Part shown: in pieces, positions 23,946-58,413 of the stretch
Numbering within the stretch: the stretch's first letter is position 1
How the letters are laid out: each line of letters opens with the position of its first letter
Assembly (NCBI RefSeq): GCF_033115175.1
Contig: NC_084847.1
Location: 51,407,612-51,471,611 of the forward strand
Source: Lepus europaeus
Taxonomy: Eukaryota > Chordata > Mammalia > Lagomorpha > Leporidae
DNA: 64,000 bases
Direction of reading: 5' to 3'
Translations under genes and position numbers: made by a program
The notes under the pieces: model-generated
What the model saw: only the letters and a program-made list of their open reading frames with translations
Databases searched by the model: none
Told to the model about the DNA's origin: nothing

Positions 23946-24085
23946 AGAACCCAGACACTCTGACATGGGTGCGGGCATCCCCAGCAGTGTCTCCAGTGCT
24001 GCACCGGACATCAGTGCCAATCAGCGGCTCGTAAACTGTGACGTGCGTCAGAATCAAGTACAGGCTTGCTACGATGCAGATTTCT

Positions 24086-24425
24086 GGGCCGGCGCTGTGG
24101 CATAGCAGGTAAAGCTGCCGCCTGCAGTGCCGGTATTCCATATAGGCACCAGTTTGAATCCTGGATGCTCCACTTCCGATCCAGCTCTCTGCTGTGGCCT
24201 GGGAAAGTGGCAGAAGATGGCCCAAGTCCTTGGGCCCCTGCACCCATGGGGGAGACCCGGAAGAAGCTCCTGGCTCCTGGCTTCGGATCTGCCCAGCTCC
24301 AGCCACTGTGGCCATCTGGGGAGTGAACCAGCAGATGGAAGAACCCTCTCTTTGTCTTTCTCTCTCTCTCTCTCCCTCTGTCACTCTACTTTTCCAAGAA
24401 ACAATCCTTAAAAAAAAAAAAAAAA
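24086..24425 (+). mobile_element. CSINE, full length
   Basis: gggccggcgctgtggcatag head, ccaagaaacaatccttaaaa tail. Confidence 0.93.
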
Positions 24426-24793
24426 GGCCGGCACCGTGGCTTAACAGGCTAATCCTCTGCCTTGCGGCGCCGGCACACCAGGTTCTAGTCCCGGCTGGGG
24501 CGCTGGATTCTATCCCGGTTGCCCCTCTTCCAGGCCAGCTCTCTGCTATGGCCCGGGAAGGCAGTGGAGGATGGCCCAAGTGCTTGGGCCCTGCACCCGC
24601 ATGGGAGACCAGGAGGGAGCACCTGGCTCCTGGCTTCGGATCAGCGAGATGAGCCAGCCGCAGCGGCCATTAGAGGGTGAACCAACGGCAAAAAAAAGAA
24701 GACCTTTCTCTCTGTCTCTCTCTCTCTCACTATCCACTCTGCCTGTCAAAAAATAAAAATAAAAAAATAAAGAAAGAAAAGAAAAGAAAAGAA
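24426..24793 (+). mobile_element. CSINE, young subfamily, inserted at the tail of the previous copy
   Basis: ggccggcaccgtggcttaac head; gcctgtcaaaaaataaaaat tail extended with aaagaaaag repeats. Confidence 0.93.
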
Positions 24794-24849
24794 GAATGGC
24801 TGCTCTGCCTTGCTTTGCCCTACATTCTCTGGTGATGGCCAGATGGAGC

Positions 24850-24965
24850 TGCGCTTGTCCCCACCTGTGTGACCCTGGGAAGGTGACTTACCTTCCTAGA
24901 TCAGTCTCCAAAACTGGCCCAGGAATGGGAGAAGACAAAACAAAATGCCGCACTCCAAGACCACT
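24850..24965 (+). mobile_element. MIR SINE relic
   Basis: Contains ctgtgtgaccctgggaaggt then gacttaccttcctagatcag, typical of MIR. Confidence 0.55.
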
Positions 24966-24988
24966 ACCACAACTGAAATCCCTGGCGA

Positions 24989-25258
24989 AGGCGCTGGTGC
25001 AGTGGCGCAGAGGGCTAAGCCTCCGCTGGCCACACCGGCATCCCACATCAGAGGGCCAGCTTGAACCCCAGCCGGTCCACTTCCCATCCAGCTCCCCGCT
25101 AGCGCGCCCTCAGAAGGCAGTGGCGCCTGCCGGTGGGAGACCACGATGGAGCTCCTGGCTCCTGGCTCAGCCATCTGGGGAGGGAGCCGGCAGATGGGAG
25201 ATCTCCCTCTCCCTTTCTCCCTCTTTCGCTTTCAAATAAAAAAAACTAAATCCTTAAG
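24989..25258 (+). mobile_element. CSINE, internally shortened
   Basis: aaggcgctggtgcagtggcg, ccggcatcccacatcagagg, tail gctttcaaataaaaaaaact. Confidence 0.85.
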
Positions 25259-25341
25259 AAACGTCTGGTGAACAAAATTCTTTATAGTAGTTTTGTCTCT
25301 AGATGGGGGTTCTTGGAGAAAAGGGCCTTTTTTCTAATTTG

Positions 25342-25656
25342 TTTTTAAAGATTTATTTATTTGAAAGACAGAGTTGCAGAGAGAGAGAGAGAGAGGTCTT
25401 CCATCCGCTGGTTCACTCCCCAGATGGCCGCAATGGCCGGAGCTGTGCCAATCCAAAGCCAGGAGCCAGGAGCTTCTTACAGGTCTCCCTCATGGGTGCA
25501 GGGGCCCAAGGACTTGGGCCATCCTCTACTGCTCTCTCAGGCCATAGCAGAGTGCTGGATGGGAAGTGGAGCAGCCGGGACTCAAACTGATGCCCATACG
25601 GGATGCCGGTGCCGCGGGCAGTGTGGCTGCATCCACTACTCCACGGCGCTGGCCCC
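25342..25656 (-). mobile_element. CSINE, full length
   Basis: aagatttatttatttgaaag to ccacggcgctggcccc. Confidence 0.92.
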
Positions 25657-26065: not shown

Positions 26066-26365
26066 GCTGCCTGAGTAGTGGCGTGGCCAGTAAAGCTGTC
26101 ACTTGCGGTGCCTGCATCCCATATGGGCTCCGGTTCGAGTCCCGGTCGCTCCACTTCTGATCCCGCTCCCTGCTATGGCCTGGGGAAGCAGTGGATGATA
26201 GCCCAGATGCTGGGCCCCTGCCAGCCACGCGGCAGACCGGGAAGAGGCTCCCGGCTTCGGCCTGGCCCCGTCCCGGCTGCGGTGGCCACTGGCCACTAAA
26301 CCAGCAGATGGAAGACCTCTCTTTTTCCTTATTTGAAAGGCAGAGTGACAGAGAAGGAGAGACAC
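26066..26365 (+). mobile_element. CSINE followed by a short reverse CSINE fragment
   Basis: tagtggcgtggccagtaaag, ggttcgagtcccggtcgctc; at 26325 it runs into ttatttgaaaggcagagtga, which is the 3' end of a copy in reverse orientation. Confidence 0.8.
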
Positions 26366-26705
26366 ATCCGGGCCTGGAACGACCAGCCTGCGGGATGGAG
26401 CCAGAGCCCGCGACCCTTCCGGGCCTCCCGCCCCTCTCCGCCATCTTTTCCCGTCATGCTCTCGGGCCGGGCCGAGGCGGCCCCGCATCCGACGCCGGGA
26501 CGCCCCTTCCCGGCTCCATCCCCACGGTCCCCTCTCGCTGGGGACGCCCTCCCGGACCGACCGTCCCCTCACGCTGGGGACGCTTCCCCAGAGACTAGTA
26601 ATGCCCACCACGCCTCTTGGAAGGACCCAGTGCGGCAATGGCTGCGATAAAGCCTTTAATGAACCACTACTGGTAAGTTACTCCAGGGCCGGCGCCGGGC
26701 TCCGG

Positions 26706-27358
26706 CCAGGCCCCGCCCCTCGTGCGCGCTCACAGCCAGACCCCGCCCCTCGAGGCGCCCCAACGGCCAGGCCCCGCCCCTCCAGTTGTCCCAGCGTCCA
26801 GGCCCCGCCCCTCGTGCGCGCTCACAGCCAGACCCCGCCCCTCGAGGCGCCCCAACGGCCAGGCCCCGCCCCTTGAAGCGCGCTCACAGCCAGACCCCGC
26901 CCCTCCAGGCGTCCCAGCGGCCAGGCCCCGCCCCTTGTGCGTGCTCACAGCCAGACCCCGCCCCTCGAGGCGCCCCAACAGCCAGGCCCCGCCCCTCGAG
27001 GCGTCCCAACGGCCAGGCTCCTCCCCTTGAAGTGGTCACAGCCAGACCCCGCCCTAGAGGCTTTCAAATGGCCAGGACCCTCCACTTGAAGCCCACTCAA
27101 AGCCAGACCCCGCCCCTCGATCCGTCCCAGCGCCCAGGCCCCGCCCCTTGTGCGCGCTCACAACCACGCCCCCCCGAGGCGTCCCAACGACCAGGCCCCG
27201 CCCCTTGTGAGCGCTCCCAGCCAGACCCCGCCCCTCGAGGCATTCAAACGGCCAGACCCCGCCCCTCGAGGCTTCTAACGGCCAGGCCCCGCCCCTCGAG
27301 GCACTCAAACGGCCCGGACCCGCCCCTCTGGGCGGTTCTAACGGCTAGCCCCGCCCAC
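26706..27358 (+). repeat. GC-box minisatellite upstream of TBL2
   Basis: About 22 tandem units of 29-31 bp. Most begin ccagaccccgcccct or ccaggccccgcccc and end in ctcacag, cccaacgg or similar. Two unit types tend to alternate (cgtgcgcgctcacag and cgaggcgccccaacgg), giving a roughly 61-bp higher-order period at the 5' end. I count about 16 perfect CCCCGCCCC cores, each a match to the Sp1/KLF GC box in reverse orientation. The units decay in the middle (27028-27110) and at the 3' end. The array stops about 75 bases before the TBL2 start codon, so it lies in the proximal promoter or 5' UTR. Confidence 0.92.
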
Positions 27359-27434
27359 GCGTGCGAGCGCGGCCCCGCGGAGACGTACGGGCTCCCGAGC
27401 GGTGCGCGGCTGAGCTGGCGGTGGCGTGTCCGAC
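27300..27434 (+). promoter_or_regulatory. TBL2: TBL2 proximal promoter / 5' UTR
   Basis: CpG-rich, TATA-less DNA between the decaying end of the GC-box array and the start codon, including ctagccccgcccacgcgtgc (27345-27364) and gcgagcgcggccccgcgg. The CpG island continues to about 27620. The start site cannot be fixed from sequence. Confidence 0.65.
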
Positions 27435-27564
27435 ATGGAGCTGCCGCAGATGCCGGAGTTAATGGGCTTGTCCCTGTTGGTTGGGCTGCTGGCCCTGATG
27501 GCGACGGCGGCGGTGGCGCGGGGGTGGCTGCGCGCGGAAGAGGAGAGGTGCGGCCCGCCTGCGC
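27435..27564 (+). CDS. TBL2: TBL2 exon 1 (coding part)
   Basis: Residues 1-43: MELPQMPELMGLSLLVGLLA and the rest of the membrane anchor. ATG context tccgacATGg. Donor gcgc|gtaagt. Confidence 0.95.
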
Positions 27565-30500
27565 GTAAGTGAGGCCGGGGCGTCGCTTGCAGGGACGCGG
27601 TGCCGCCTGGCCGGGCCGGTCCCTCGCCCCGGGCAGCCCTGGTTAGAACCTGGGTCCCGCAGAGTGGCCTTGCCGGGGCTCTACGGCTGTGCCCGGGGTG
27701 CGCGACTGTTAGAGCGAGGGCAGAGCGACTTAGCTCGGTGCACCCCTTGCTCCATGGTGGGCTTCGGGGGAGAGAGGTCCCCTAGCGTGTCGACGTGAGC
27801 GAGAGGGGAGGTGTGCAGGACCCCTTCGCAGAGATGGGGGGCCCCCAGGGGCAAGACGAGGCGTCCCCAGGCAGCGTGTGGGGGTCGGGAGCGGGGAGGA
27901 CAGGCAGACAGAGGCTCGATCCAGCTTGTAGGGTAGGAGCCCAAGCCACGCGTGTTCCGTGTGCCAGCCTTGTGCCTAGCCTGGTCCTCCGTGAGGTAGG
28001 GGATGCAGAAGTTGACTGGCACCGTTCCTGGCGAGGGGCTGGGTGCTCCCACACGTATTGGACTTCCTGTCATCCCTGGGTTCTTTCTGGGATGTTCCGG
28101 AGCCTCTAGCCCTGTTGCTTTGTGTGTGTTACCCCGTCCAATACTCTCAACCTGTTGAAGGAGTCCAAGGCCCCAGAGCGAGTTAAGAATGTTCCCAAAG
28201 CCAAGGCCACTAGGTAAGACGCACTTTATTCTGGCCAAGGATCCACACTCCCCCTGCTGTGCTGTGTTACCTGCCCAACTGCTGTCACACAGAGGCTGTT
28301 CTTTAAGATTTATTTATTTATTTGAAGGAGTTACAGAGAGGCAGAGAGAGAGAGAGGTCTTCCACTGCTGGTTCATGGCCCAAATGGCTGCAATGGCCAG
28401 AGCTGCGCCGATCCGAAGCCAGGAGCATCTTCTGGGTCTCCCACACATGTGCAGGGGCCCAAAGACTTGGGCCATCTTCTACTGCTTTCCCAGGCCACAG
28501 CAGAGAGCTGGATTGGAAGAGGAGCAGCCGGGACTCGAACCAGCGCCCATATGGGATGCCAGCACTGCAGGCAGTGGCTTTACCCACTATGCCAGGGCAT
28601 CGGCCCTGAATGAGGCTGGCATTTCTAATTTGCATTGAGGCGCTCTGTAGACAGGCAGCCTCCTCAGTGGCACAGTCAGAATCCACACCCAGGGGTCAGC
28701 AATGGTGCAGTGGGTTAAGCTGCCGCCTGCATCCCACATGAGCGTCGGTTTGAGTCCTGGCTGCTCCACTTCCCATCCAGCTCCCTGCTGATGCTGCTGG
28801 GAAGACAGCAGAGGACAGCCCAAGTGCTTGGGGCCCTGCTACCCACGTGGGAGACCTGGAGTTCCAGGCCCCTGTCTTCCACTGTGTGCTCAGTGGAGGG
28901 AAGATCTCTTTCTGTTTCTCCTCTCTCTTCCCTTCAAATAAATAAGTCTTTAAAAAAAAAAAAAAAAAAAGAATCCAAACCCAGGTCAGATTGCAAAGCC
29001 TGCGTGTGTGCCCACATCACGCTGTTGGGAAACACAACGGCCGGATCTGGTTTATCTCTTGCTGCTGCACTTAGCGCCTGGCCAATCACAGGTGGTCAGT
29101 GAACGCTTAGGAGGGAGAGACTGGGGGAATGACGCGGCCCCCACCTTGCAGGCCAAAAAGCAAACGGACTTGCACCTGAGAAGTCCTCGGGCTCCAAGAA
29201 GCAGAAGCAGCATCAGCGGATTCGCAAGGAGAAGCCCCAGCAGCACACCTTCAGCCACCGCCTCCTGGCCGCAGCGCTGAAGGTACGTGGGCACGCACGC
29301 ACGCACGCACACACAGCCCCCGTGCACAGATGCACCTGCAGGTCTCTGCCTCTGTGGAGACTCAGTGGGCGTGGCCCATGCCGTCCTGTCCCGTCCCCAG
29401 TTTGCTGGCTACCCCAGGCATCGAGGCCCCAGGGTTCCGCCTCTCCAGGTGCCCATGGGGTTCCCACTCAATGCTTCCCTGCAGAGCCACAGCGGCAACA
29501 TATCCTGCATGGACTTTAGCAGCAACGGCAAGTACCTGGCCACCTGCGCAGACGACCGCACGGTCCGCCTCTGGAGCACCAAGGACTTCCTGCAGCGGGA
29601 GCACCGGAGCATGAGGGCCAACGTGGAGCTGGACCACGCCACCCTGGTGCGCTTCAGCCCCGACTGCAGGTGGGGCAGCACGCAGCCGCGGCCCGTCCCG
29701 GGGGCCTGCCCGCGTCCAGTGTAGGGTAGCGAGGCGAGCTCCGGGGTCTCCCTTGGGGTGGTGTTAAGGGCCCCCAGCTAGCTTGAGCACTGCCCGTGTG
29801 CTCCTCGTCTCTAGGGCCTTCATTGTCTGGCTGGCCGGTGGAGACACCCTCCGTGTCTTCAAGATGAGCAAGCGAGAGGACGGGGGCTACACCTTCACAG
29901 CCACCCCAGAGGACTTTCCTAAAAAGCACAAGGCCCCTGTCATCAGCATTGGCATTGCCAGCACAGGTAAGAGGCACGCAGCGTGGAGCCTGCCCCCGGC
30001 GCAAGGTCATGGGCCCGCTTGTATGTGTTGGGAAAGACAGTGCGTGGGTGCTCGGCGTGACGCAGGGGCTCCTGGAGTCCTCCAAGCCACCGCAGGGTCC
30101 TTCCCTGTGCCGACCTGTGGCTGGGCGGGGGGCAGCGGCCGCCTCTGCGCCTCCGTGGGCGAGGCCGTTGCCCTCAGCTCCCGCCCCGCCTTGCTCCCTC
30201 AGGGAAGTTCATCATGACGGCCTCCAGTGACACAACTGTTCTCATCTGGAATCTGAAAGGCCAGGTGCTGGCCACCATCAACACCAACCAGATGAACAAC
30301 ACCTACGCTGCCATATCCCCTTGCAGCAGGTGAGGAAGGAGGGGTGTGGTGTGAGGAGTGGAGGAGAGAGGCTGGGCGGGCCTAGGCCGAGCCAGAGCCC
30401 AAGCTGCAGCGGCAAGTCCCACCCCTCCCACTGCAGTGAAGCAGGGAGGGGACCTCACGGGAGCTGCCCCAAGTCCAGAGTCTGTCATTTTATAATAGTT

Positions 30501-33453
30501 GGGGGTGCTGTGTTTCTTAGAGCAAGGCTGTGAGATAAATTGAGGTCCCCTATAGGAAAACACTTATTATTTTTTTAAAGATATATTTGTTTAAAAGGCA
30601 GAGTTACTGAGAAAGAGCTCTTCCATCCATTTGGTTCACTCCCTAAACGGCCACAGTGGCCAGGGCTGGGTCAGGTTGAAGCCAGGAGCCTGGGACTCCA
30701 ATCAGGTTTTCCACGTGGTACAGGGGCCCAGGGACCTGGGCTGTCTTCTGCTACTGTCCCAAGCACATTATGGAGCTGGATCGGAAGTGGAGCAGCCAGG
30801 ACTTGAACCAGAACCTGATTGGGTTGCCAATGTTGCAGGCAGTGGCTTAACCCACCGTGCCACAGGGCTGGGTCCAGAAGAGCACTTTTAAAGGGTACGG
30901 TGTTATTTAGGTAAGAGTTTGTTAGCTATTGGCCAGTGCCGTGGCTTAACAGGCTAATCCTCCACCTTGTGGTGCCGGCACACCGGGTTCTGTCCCGGTT
31001 GCTCCTCTTCCAGGCCAGCTCTCTGCTATGGCCCTGGAAGGCAGTGGAGGATGGCCCAAGTCCTTGGGCCCTGCACCTGCATGGGAGACCAGGAGAAGCA
31101 CCTGGCTCCTGGCTTCGGATCAGCACGATGCGCAGGCCGCAGCAGCCATTGGAGGATGAACCAATGGCAAAAAGGAAGACCTTTCTCTGTCTCTCTCACT
31201 GTCCACTCTGCCTGTCAAAACAAACAAACAAACAAAAAAAAAGAGTTTGTTAGCTTTCTTAAGGAGGGGACTTAGGGGGCTGCAGGAAGAAGATACCCTT
31301 GAATTTGAAAGGCGTCTGGTCTGTCTGGCAGGTTTGTGGGCTCATGTGGCTTCACTCCAGATGTGAAGGTTTGGGAGGTCTGCTTTGGGAAGAAGGGGGA
31401 CTTCCAGGAGGTTGTGCGAGCCTTTGAGCTGAAGGGCCACTCTGCGGCTGTCCACGCTTTCGCCTTCTCCAACGACTCCCGGAGGTGAGTGACGGCGCCA
31501 GTGAGCCGCTCCTGGCTGTTTTATTTATTTATTTATTTTTTATTTGAAAAGCAGAGTTAACAGAGACAGATCGCTCTTCCATCTACTGGGAGACTCCCCA
31601 AATGCCCGCAACAGCCACGGCTGGACCAGGCTGAAGCCAGGAGCCAAGAACTCCACCTGAGTCTCCCATGTGGGTGCAGGGGTCAAGCACTTGCACCATC
31701 TTCCACTGCTTTCCCAGGTGTATTAGGGGGCTGGATTGGAAGTGGAGCAGCCGGGACTCGTACCGGTACCCATATGGGATGCCAGCGTTTCAGGTACCAG
31801 CTTAATCCACTGTGCCACAGCACCAGCTCAATTTTTTTTTTTAAGATGTATTTATTTAGGGGCTGGTGCTGTGGTGTAGTGGGCTAAGCCTCCACCTGCA
31901 GCACTGGCATCCCATATGGCACCAGTTCTAGTCCCGTCTGCTCCACTTCTGATCTAGCTCTCTGCTATGGCCTGGGAAAGCAGTGGAAGATGGCCCAGTT
32001 TCTTGGGCCCCTGCACCCGTGTGGGAGACCCAGAAGAAGCTCCTGGCTTCTAGCTTCGGATTGGTTCACCTACGGCTATTGCGGCCATCTAGGGAGTGAA
32101 CCAGCAGATAGAAAACCTTTATCTGTGTCTCTCCCTTTCTCTCTCTCTCTCTCTACTGTAACTCTCCCTCTCAAATAAATAAAATCTATTTTTTTAAAAA
32201 GACGTATTTAGGCCGGCGCCACAGCTCACTAGGCTAATCCTCTGCCTGTGGCACTGGTACCCCGGGTTCTAGTCCTGGTTGGGCGCCGGATTCTGTCCCG
32301 GTTGCTCCTCTTCCAGTCCAGCTCTCTGCTGTGGCCCGGGAAGGCAGTGGAGGATGGCCCAAGTGCTTGGGCCCTTGGGCCCTGCACCCGCATGAGAGAC
32401 CAGGAGGAGGCACCTGGCTCCTGGCTTTGGATTGGCGCAGCGCCGGCCATAGCGGCCATTTCGGGGGTGAACCAACGGAAAAGGAAGACCTTTCTCTCTG
32501 TCTCTCTCTCTCACTGTCTAACTCTGCCTGTCAAAAAAAAAAAAAAAAATGTATTTATTTATTTGAAATGCAGTTAACAGAGAGATCTTCCTTCTGCTAG
32601 TTCACTCCTCAGATGGCTGCAATAGCTGAGGCTTGGCCAGGCCGAAGTGAGGAGCCCGGGTCTCTCTCTGGGTCTCCCCTGTGGGTGGCATTTCACAGCA
32701 GGGAGCTTGATCGGAAGTGGAGCAGCTGGGATTTGAACGGGCACTGGTATGGGCTGCCAGCTTTGCAGGCAGTGGCATAACCCACTGCGCCACAGAGCTG
32801 CCTCCCCGCGCACCAGCCCTCCTTGATGGCCGGGTCCTCCTGCCTGTCCCTCCTGCAGCTCTGCTTGGGTGGGACACTGACTCTCAGCAGGAAGTAGGCT
32901 TGACTTGCTAGCTGGAGGCCCCCAGGCTGTCCCGGAGCCCCGCCATGCCAGGCTGTGTCGCGGTTTGAGCTGTGATTTTCTGTGCCGCAGGATGGCGTCA
33001 GTCTCCAAGGACGGCACGTGGAAACTGTGGGACACGGACGTGGAATACAAAAAGCAGCAGGACCCCTACTTGCTGCGGACGGGCCGCTTCGAAGAGGCAG
33101 GCACCATGCCGTGCCGCCTGGCGCTCTCCCCTGACGCCCAGGTCTTGGCCCTGGCCAGCGGCACGAGCATCCATGTCTACAACACCCGGCGCGGTGAGAA
33201 GGAGGAGTGCTTTCAACAGGTGCACGGCGAGTGCATCAGCGACTTGGCCTTTGACATCACAGGGCGCTTTCTGGCCTCGTGCGGGGACCGGGCCGTGCGA
33301 CTGTTCCACAACACTGCCGGCCACCGGGCAGTAGTGGAGGAGACGCAGGGCTTCCTGAAGCGGGCCTCCAATGAGAGCACCCGCCAGAGGCTGCAGCAGC
33401 AGCTGACGCAGGCCCAGGAGGCCCTGAGGAGCCTGGGGGCCCTGAAGAAGTGA
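27435..33453 (+). CDS. TBL2: TBL2, transducin beta-like protein 2 (7 coding exons, 446 aa)
   Basis: WD40-repeat protein anchored in the ER membrane; the family member is known to associate with PERK during ER stress and to support ATF4 translation. Exons: 27435-27564, 29152-29282, 29485-29669, 29815-29966, 30203-30329, 31332-31484, 32991-33453; joined 1341 nt, one open frame, all introns GT-AG. The human protein has 447 aa. An N-terminal hydrophobic segment (about residues 10-32, LLVGLLALMATAAVARGWL) is the likely signal anchor. It is followed by a basic stretch (KSSGSKKQKQ, ~55-64), then WD repeats from residue 88 on (WSTKDF, IWNLKG, VWEVCF, LWDTDV, VYNTRR, LFHNT blades), and a C-terminal helix RQRLQQQLTQAQEALRSLG. 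The start is chosen because MELPQMPELMGLS matches the family N-terminus. It lies between MLXIPL and BCL7B as in human. Confidence 0.97.
28300..28606 (-). mobile_element. CSINE, TBL2 intron 1
   Basis: aagatttatttatttatttg to tatgccagggcatcggccc. Confidence 0.92.
28690..28970 (+). mobile_element. CSINE, TBL2 intron 1, internally deleted
   Basis: gggtcagcaatggtgcagtg to cttcaaataaataagtcttt and a poly-A tail. Confidence 0.88.
29152..29282 (+). CDS. TBL2: TBL2 exon 2
   Basis: Residues 44-87, QKANGLAPEKSSGSKKQKQ through HRLLAAALK, a lysine-rich linker between the anchor and the propeller. Acceptor ccttgcag|gcc; donor ctgaag|gtacgt. Confidence 0.96.
29284..29313. repeat. short (CACG)n/(CA)n repeat, TBL2 intron 2
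   Basis: gcacgcacgcacgcacgcac immediately after the exon 2 donor, then acacag. Confidence 0.8.
29485..29669 (+). CDS. TBL2: TBL2 exon 3 (first WD repeat)
   Basis: Residues 88-148, SHSGNISCMDFSSNGKYLAT, DDRTVRLWSTKDF, ending VRFSPDC. Acceptor cctgcag|agc; donor tgcag|gtgggg. Confidence 0.97.
29815..29966 (+). CDS. TBL2: TBL2 exon 4
   Basis: Residues 149-199, AFIVWLAGGDTLRVFKMSKR through APVISIGIAST. Acceptor ctctag|ggcc; donor acag|gtaaga. Confidence 0.97.
30203..30329 (+). CDS. TBL2: TBL2 exon 5
   Basis: Residues 200-241, GKFIMTASSDTTVLIWNLKG through NTNQMNNTYAAISPC. Acceptor ccctcag|gga; donor agcag|gtgagg. Confidence 0.97.
30570..30876 (-). mobile_element. CSINE, TBL2 intron 5
   Basis: aaagatatatttgtttaaaa to accgtgccacagggctgggtc. 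Confidence 0.88.
30928..31240 (+). mobile_element. CSINE, young subfamily, TBL2 intron 5
   Basis: ggccagtgccgtggcttaac head; (CAAA)n tail. Target duplication aagagtttgttagct at 30913-30927 and 31241-31255. Inserted about 75 bp upstream of the exon 6 acceptor side. Confidence 0.95.
31332..31484 (+). CDS. TBL2: TBL2 exon 6
   Basis: Residues 242-292, FVGSCGFTPDVKVWEVCFGK through GHSAAVHAFAFSNDSR. Acceptor ctggcag|gttt; donor cggag|gtgagt. Flanked on both sides by SINE-filled introns. Confidence 0.97.
31518..31830 (-). mobile_element. CSINE, TBL2 intron 6
   Basis: ttatttatttatttattttt to ctgtgccacagcaccagctc, 35 bp after the exon 6 donor. Confidence 0.9.
31859..32198 (+). mobile_element. CSINE nested in a reverse CSINE
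   Basis: ggggctggtgctgtggtgta head to caaataaataaaatctattt. Confidence 0.9.
32211..32549 (+). mobile_element. CSINE, young subfamily, nested
   Basis: ggccggcgccacagctcact head; gcctgtcaaaaaaa tail; flanked by gtattta copies. Confidence 0.9.
32991..33453 (+). CDS. TBL2: TBL2 exon 7 (terminal coding exon)
   Basis: Residues 293-446: MASVSKDGTWKLWDTDVEYK, then the last propeller blades and the C-terminal helix ending LGALKK; TGA at 33451-33453. The segment EEAGTMPC is one residue shorter than the human equivalent as I recall it. Acceptor gccgcag|gatg. Confidence 0.97.

Positions 33454-39639: not shown

Positions 39640-58413
<18,774 letters not shown>

Follow-up and report, generated by a model that had tools for sequence, protein, structure and literature searches.

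A tandem array of GC boxes lies just upstream of the first coding exon of TBL2 in Lepus europaeus, raising the question of whether the array belongs to the promoter of this gene or is a G+C-rich minisatellite that merely adjoins it. The array was studied within a 64-kb stretch of genomic DNA (the window, to which all positions refer unless stated otherwise) and together with other GC-box arrays of the same genome. Its position and sequence indicate that it is likely to form part of the TBL2 proximal promoter, with many potential Sp1/KLF sites.

Structure and setting of the TBL2 array

The 22 units delimited here (Table 1), when rejoined, reproduce the window sequence from 26704 to 27373 letter for letter, and TRF independently reports a repeat with a period of 31 bp and 20.6 copies at 26703-27328. 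The head-to-tail array described upstream of TBL2 in an earlier, sequence-only reading is therefore real, and its estimates of about 22 units and about 16 intact cores are matched by 22 units, 16 of which contain exact CCCCGCCCC. The unit lengths, previously given as 29-31 bp, run from 27 to 32 bp, with the end of the degenerate last unit placed by hand at 31 bp. The same reading had correctly set the array close before the TBL2 ATG (27435), at a distance of 75 bp; the true gap is 61 bp, and the end point then used, 27358, falls inside the last unit, 76 bp from the ATG. The unit consensus is GGCCAGGCCCCGCCCCTCGAGGCGTCCCAAC, and every exact CCCCGCCCC is found on the plus strand, which is the coding strand of TBL2.

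Table 1. Positions of the array, its two parts and the neighbouring TBL2 features in the window
Feature	Position	Strand	Description
GC-box minisatellite	26704-27373	+	22 tandem units, each 27-32 bp long; CCCCGCCCC exact in 16
Distal part (units 1-10)	26704-27010	+	Cores intact in 10/10 units; mean best-partner similarity 0.949
Gene-proximal part (units 11-22)	27011-27373	+	More worn, cores intact in 6/12 units; mean best-partner similarity 0.877
TBL2 exon 1, coding part	27435-27564	+	Begins MELPQMPELMGLS...; GTAAGT donor at 27565
TBL2 exons 2-7	29152-33450	+	Matches of human TBL2 protein; exon 2 follows TTGCAG; other exon ends approximate
CpG-island stretch with array and exon 1	26251-28000		CpG o/e 0.75-0.91; G+C 0.68-0.74

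Start-to-start spacing of the boxes is 30 or 31 bp, save for two gaps of 121 and 57 bp that represent four damaged units (11, 12, 13 and 16); the remaining two damaged units are 21 and 22. Only CCCCGCCC, without exact CCCCGCCCC, is present in units 12 and 22. Two main unit types, ending in GTGCGCGCTCAC and GAGGCGCCCCAAC, are found among the distal units 1-10. Units 2, 5 and 9 are identical to each other, while GTGCGCGCTCAC or a near form ends units 1, 4, 8, 15 and 17. TRF also gives periods of 61, 92 and 123 bp, which fit unit types that recur in blocks. Helical phasing of the boxes was considered and rejected, as they are in phase only at an assumed turn of 10.2 bp (0.97 for the first ten), with a value of 0.30 at 10.5 bp.

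TBL2 itself was identified by seven ordered plus-strand protein matches between 27435 and 33450, at 60-93% identity to a human TBL2 query, and its first exon ends in phase 1. CpG o/e is 0.76 in 26704-27358 and 0.84 in 27359-28000, both within the same island. Upstream it is 0.33-0.48 in the 500-bp bins starting from 24001 to 25501, 0.56 in the bin from 25751 and 0.67 in that from 26001, and downstream it is 0.24-0.35 in the bins from 28001 to 28751, then 0.53-0.65 from 29001; the island limits derive from overlapping 500-bp bins and are approximate. A string search of 26381-27440 found no TATAA, TATAT, CCAAT or ATTGG. A 10-bp Sp1 consensus has 17 matches in the array and no match in 27374-27600. 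The array thus combines tandem units, most of them with a GC box (16/22), with a location just upstream of the first exon and inside its CpG island, two of the features that characterise promoter GC-box minisatellites. The earlier proximal-promoter proposal is supported in part, by TBL2 downstream, the CpG island, the lack of TATA and CCAAT strings, the Sp1 consensus matches and the slow core described below, and the promoter role itself is predicted from these. No known RNA family was found in the window at gathering score, and a bacterial-type promoter scan of 27300-27500, a scan type unsuited to this genome, returned nothing. Literature searches returned no paper pairing TBL2 with a VNTR and, among the matches listed, no title on the TBL2 promoter.

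Several further elements occur in the flanking sequence. A SINE at about 26080-26390 is presumably of rabbit type. Two 36-bp tandem copies, 81% alike, are situated just upstream of the array (26521-26592), each with a short GTCCCC...GGGGAC inverted repeat. The minus strand of the CpG island contains AAAAGATGGCGG at 26438-26449, which we take to be a YY1-like start-site motif and which could mark an antisense start.

GC boxes in other minisatellites of the genome

GC boxes within minisatellites are common in this genome. On both strands of the window, CCCCGCCCC occurs 34 times against 2.99 expected and a maximum of eight in 100 shuffles; 18 of the 34 boxes sit outside the TBL2 array, so the window is motif-rich in any case. 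A three-box spaced pattern matches ten times in the window, always within the array, and not once in 100 shuffles; it reads identically backwards, which makes a reversed-pattern control uninformative. The 2.93-Gb assembly holds 225 matches to this pattern; among the matches listed, which run to contig C9, about 22 separate places were counted by eye, several of them less than 2 Mb from a contig end. One such minisatellite, with a 30-bp unit, has pattern matches over 6 kb (G000:C5:786945-792975, L039-L045 in part); its L043 part contains 49 boxes, and of the 96 units there, 23 have CA at the core CpG. The window also holds a far longer minisatellite at 51018-53207, comprising about 132 copies of the 17-bp unit GTACCCGTCCTCCAGGG, with higher periods of 33 and 50 bp.

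The TBL2 array has one full-length match in the one assembly, and ten other matches are 67-77% alike. That these other arrays might be copies of it was dismissed on the grounds that their unit lengths (18, 29, 31, 33, 34 bp etc.) and spacers differ. Copies of the same unit, such as an interspersed repeat or transposon would leave, were not found among the arrays examined, all of which have other units, and a search scoring best candidates only found no second genomic match for the 306 bp upstream of the array.

Control arrays were drawn from 21 screened entries, consisting of TBL2 and 20 loci. L012 and L038 (no three-box row), L016 (a 6-bp repeat), L036 (three copies) and L015 (irregular) were left out, as were L024, L028, L032, L035 and L039, which are other cuts of L021, L026 and L043. 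L014 yielded no row in this screen and was added for the wear analysis. The final set comprises eight control arrays, seven with a core/spacer ratio; L013 was analysed and kept outside the pooled CpG count. CpG o/e is 0.18-0.66 in the eight control arrays, compared with 0.77 in the TBL2 array.

A promoter-like position of a GC-box cluster, as judged from sequence features, recurs at least once among the loci examined. L015:4729-5163 (G000:C2 near 11,859,190), found by similarity, has 13 copies of CCCCGCCCC on one strand and one CCCCACCCC, and lies in a discrete CpG island, for which three bins give o/e values of 0.78-0.96. Downstream of its boxes, on the same strand, is a short ATG-bearing exon-like stretch ending in a donor (ATGCCAAG|GTGAGG). 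L015 resembles TBL2 in having a one-strand GC-box cluster in a CpG island followed by an exon-like stretch, but differs in its irregular box spacing of 5-58 bp and in the 257 bp that separate the end of its last box from the ATG.

Wear of core and spacer

Wear was assessed in 21 units of the TBL2 array and in ten further arrays from this genome by aligning the units to the consensus of their own array and counting changes on neighbour-joining trees of the units. Outside CpG, the TBL2 array shows 0.57 changes per site in the core and 1.88 in the spacer, a ratio of 0.30. The nine core columns account for six of the 54 inferred changes over 31 columns in 21 units (binomial P 0.0015). The counts are few, and this P value and those below are too small because the units are copies of one another. 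Among the 31 possible nine-column rotations of the unit the core ranks second lowest, and the slow block extends to the CCAG preceding it.

The core CpG is retained as CG in 18 of 22 units and is TG/CA in none, whereas the CpG that directly follows remains CG in 11 and has become TG in six (Fisher P 0.008). Change is thus slow in the core compared with the rest of the TBL2 unit, and the mutable core CpG has escaped where the neighbouring CpG has not. CpGs in the spacers do carry transitions, so germline hypomethylation of the array is not proven.

Among arrays with several exact boxes, the TBL2 ratio is the lowest of eight defined values. The other seven span 0.46-6.0 (L009 0.67, L010 0.46, L011 0.66, L021 6.0, L026 1.10, L037 0.99, L043 1.08), several of them resting on a handful of changes; L018 shows no spacer change, which leaves its ratio undefined, and L014 (1.64) has only two exact boxes and was left out of this comparison. 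L009, L010 and L011 lean in the same direction as TBL2, and four arrays do not. Pooled over the eight control arrays (326 units), the core CpG is CG in 224 units and TG/CA in 64 (one-sided P 0.013 against TBL2), with 57 of the 64 TG/CA contributed by L021, L026 and L043. The other five arrays (99 units) have 87 CG and seven TG/CA (P 0.28), and the core-CpG contrast between TBL2 and other arrays is weak.

L013:4347-5292 (G000:C23 near 10,297,600) is a 34-bp array with the consensus CCCCAGCCCC in the place of the GC box and a CpG o/e of 0.11. None of its 27 units has the exact core, and its core/spacer ratio is 0.24, indicating that retention of a GC box is not required for a C-rich block to change slowly. 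The wear pattern in the TBL2 array matches the trace expected of selection for GC boxes and is suggestive of it, but falls short of proof given the shared ancestry of the units, the similar slow block of L013 and the ability of conversion between units to mimic the same outcome.

Candidate roles and comparison with known promoter repeats

The most likely role of the TBL2 array is that of a homotypic Sp1/KLF platform in a TATA-less promoter. In its full form, this explanation, which is probable though well short of certain, would have a GC-rich minisatellite growing through tandem duplication inside the TBL2 CpG-island promoter, so that the array would now belong to the proximal promoter. With one GC box in each intact unit, it could offer a dense platform for zinc-finger factors of the Sp1/KLF type, and this platform may keep the region open and drive TATA-less initiation in the short stretch between the array and the ATG. 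For the array we infer factor binding, activity, the start site and selective maintenance of the core, as opposed to its survival through chance or conversion.

Alternatively, the minisatellite may be a passenger, a common G+C-rich repeat with chance GC boxes, and non-repeated elements from 27374 to exon 1, or upstream of the array, would do the work. Such arrays are indeed frequent, with 225 three-box matches in the assembly and about 22 places among the matches listed, and the eight other multi-box arrays at CpG o/e 0.18-0.66 argue that a minisatellite can contain GC boxes without having any promoter role. The slow C-rich block of L013, which has no GC boxes, and the dependence of the core-CpG contrast on three of the eight control arrays point the same way. 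The contrast between core and spacer within the TBL2 array speaks against a passenger, as does the lack of any match to the 10-bp Sp1 consensus in 27374-27600. This explanation is judged unlikely, yet it merits serious consideration.

Much less probable is a role of DNA structure, in which a quadruplex or R-loop of the G-rich strand would hold the promoter in an open state or indicate where antisense transcription starts. The minus strand carries 53 G runs at least three bases long, and the GC skew is -0.35 across 26750-27249 and becomes positive from bin 27250-27749 onward. Both are compatible with such a role, but the array has only one canonical G3+N1-7 quadruplex motif, and a loop made of the 20-odd bases that separate the boxes would be of unfavourable length for quadruplex formation. 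Most improbable of all, TBL2 transcription could start further upstream, with the array then lying in a 5' intron or in untranslated sequence. About 30 bp before the array is a good match to a donor site (CTG|GTAAGT, cut after 26672) that could serve such a transcript, GGTAAGT being found only twice on the plus strand of the window. The small open frame preceding this donor (26638-26672), however, ends in phase 2 and, since the first exon of TBL2 has phase 1 at its end, would be out of frame if joined to exon 2. On account of this phase it was rejected as an alternative coding first exon (ATG to donor), and it would be at most a non-coding or unrelated exon.

A more elaborate version of the Sp1/KLF platform, speculative and doubtful, would make the TBL2 promoter of this lineage self-renewing. 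Units would be replaced by duplication and conversion, worn boxes would gather on the gene side and fresh intact copies on the far side, and selection would keep the GC-box core, while animals would still differ in array length, in steps of one to four units, and the level of TBL2 would depend on that length. If the array is active, a gene of the Williams-Beuren region would be preceded by sixteen exact GC boxes that are almost evenly spaced, and this naturally occurring series could help to establish what number of such boxes a single promoter is able to use; if inactive, the array would be an ordinary feature of G+C-rich mammalian promoters. Comparing core and spacer wear within an array also offers a cheap selection test for repeated binding sites, applicable to all promoter minisatellites.

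The early promoter of SV40 contains 21-bp repeats, three units with two GC boxes each, upstream of the start, and thus resembles the TBL2 region in its tandem GC-box units, although SV40 is a virus. Among cellular genes, human minisatellite VNTRs are reported to be enriched in promoters and CpG islands (PMC8096271), and a tendency towards G/C richness is described for promoter microsatellites (PMC3566118). The tandem GC boxes of the G+C-rich ALOX5 core promoter are stated to bind Sp1 and Egr-1; basal transcription is said to require them, and their number to differ among individuals (PMC13179450). ALOX5 shares the tandem arrangement with TBL2 but has eight boxes, five of them in tandem, whereas the TBL2 array has 16, in units about 31 bp long, with predicted Sp1 sites. 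The XRCC5 promoter VNTR, which is similarly a promoter minisatellite with a putative Sp1 site per unit, has a 21-bp unit in zero to three copies at -160, compared with 22 units of 27-32 bp in TBL2. More copies there are associated with lower expression (PMC4829605), and the sign of any effect of length on TBL2 could consequently not be assumed. The proposal of the earlier reading that repeat number could vary between animals and tune TBL2 expression is a hypothesis that would allow either direction of effect. In CSTB, the unit of the promoter repeat CCCCGCCCCGCG likewise includes CCCCGCCCC; it is 12 bp long, with two or three copies in healthy individuals and an expansion in EPM1 (PMC10814315), as against the 22 longer units of TBL2 in one assembly. 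A tandem arrangement of GC boxes is known from a few human promoters, and the TBL2 array, which has more copies, is of a kind already represented by ALOX5, XRCC5 and CSTB and is unusual mainly for its number of boxes.
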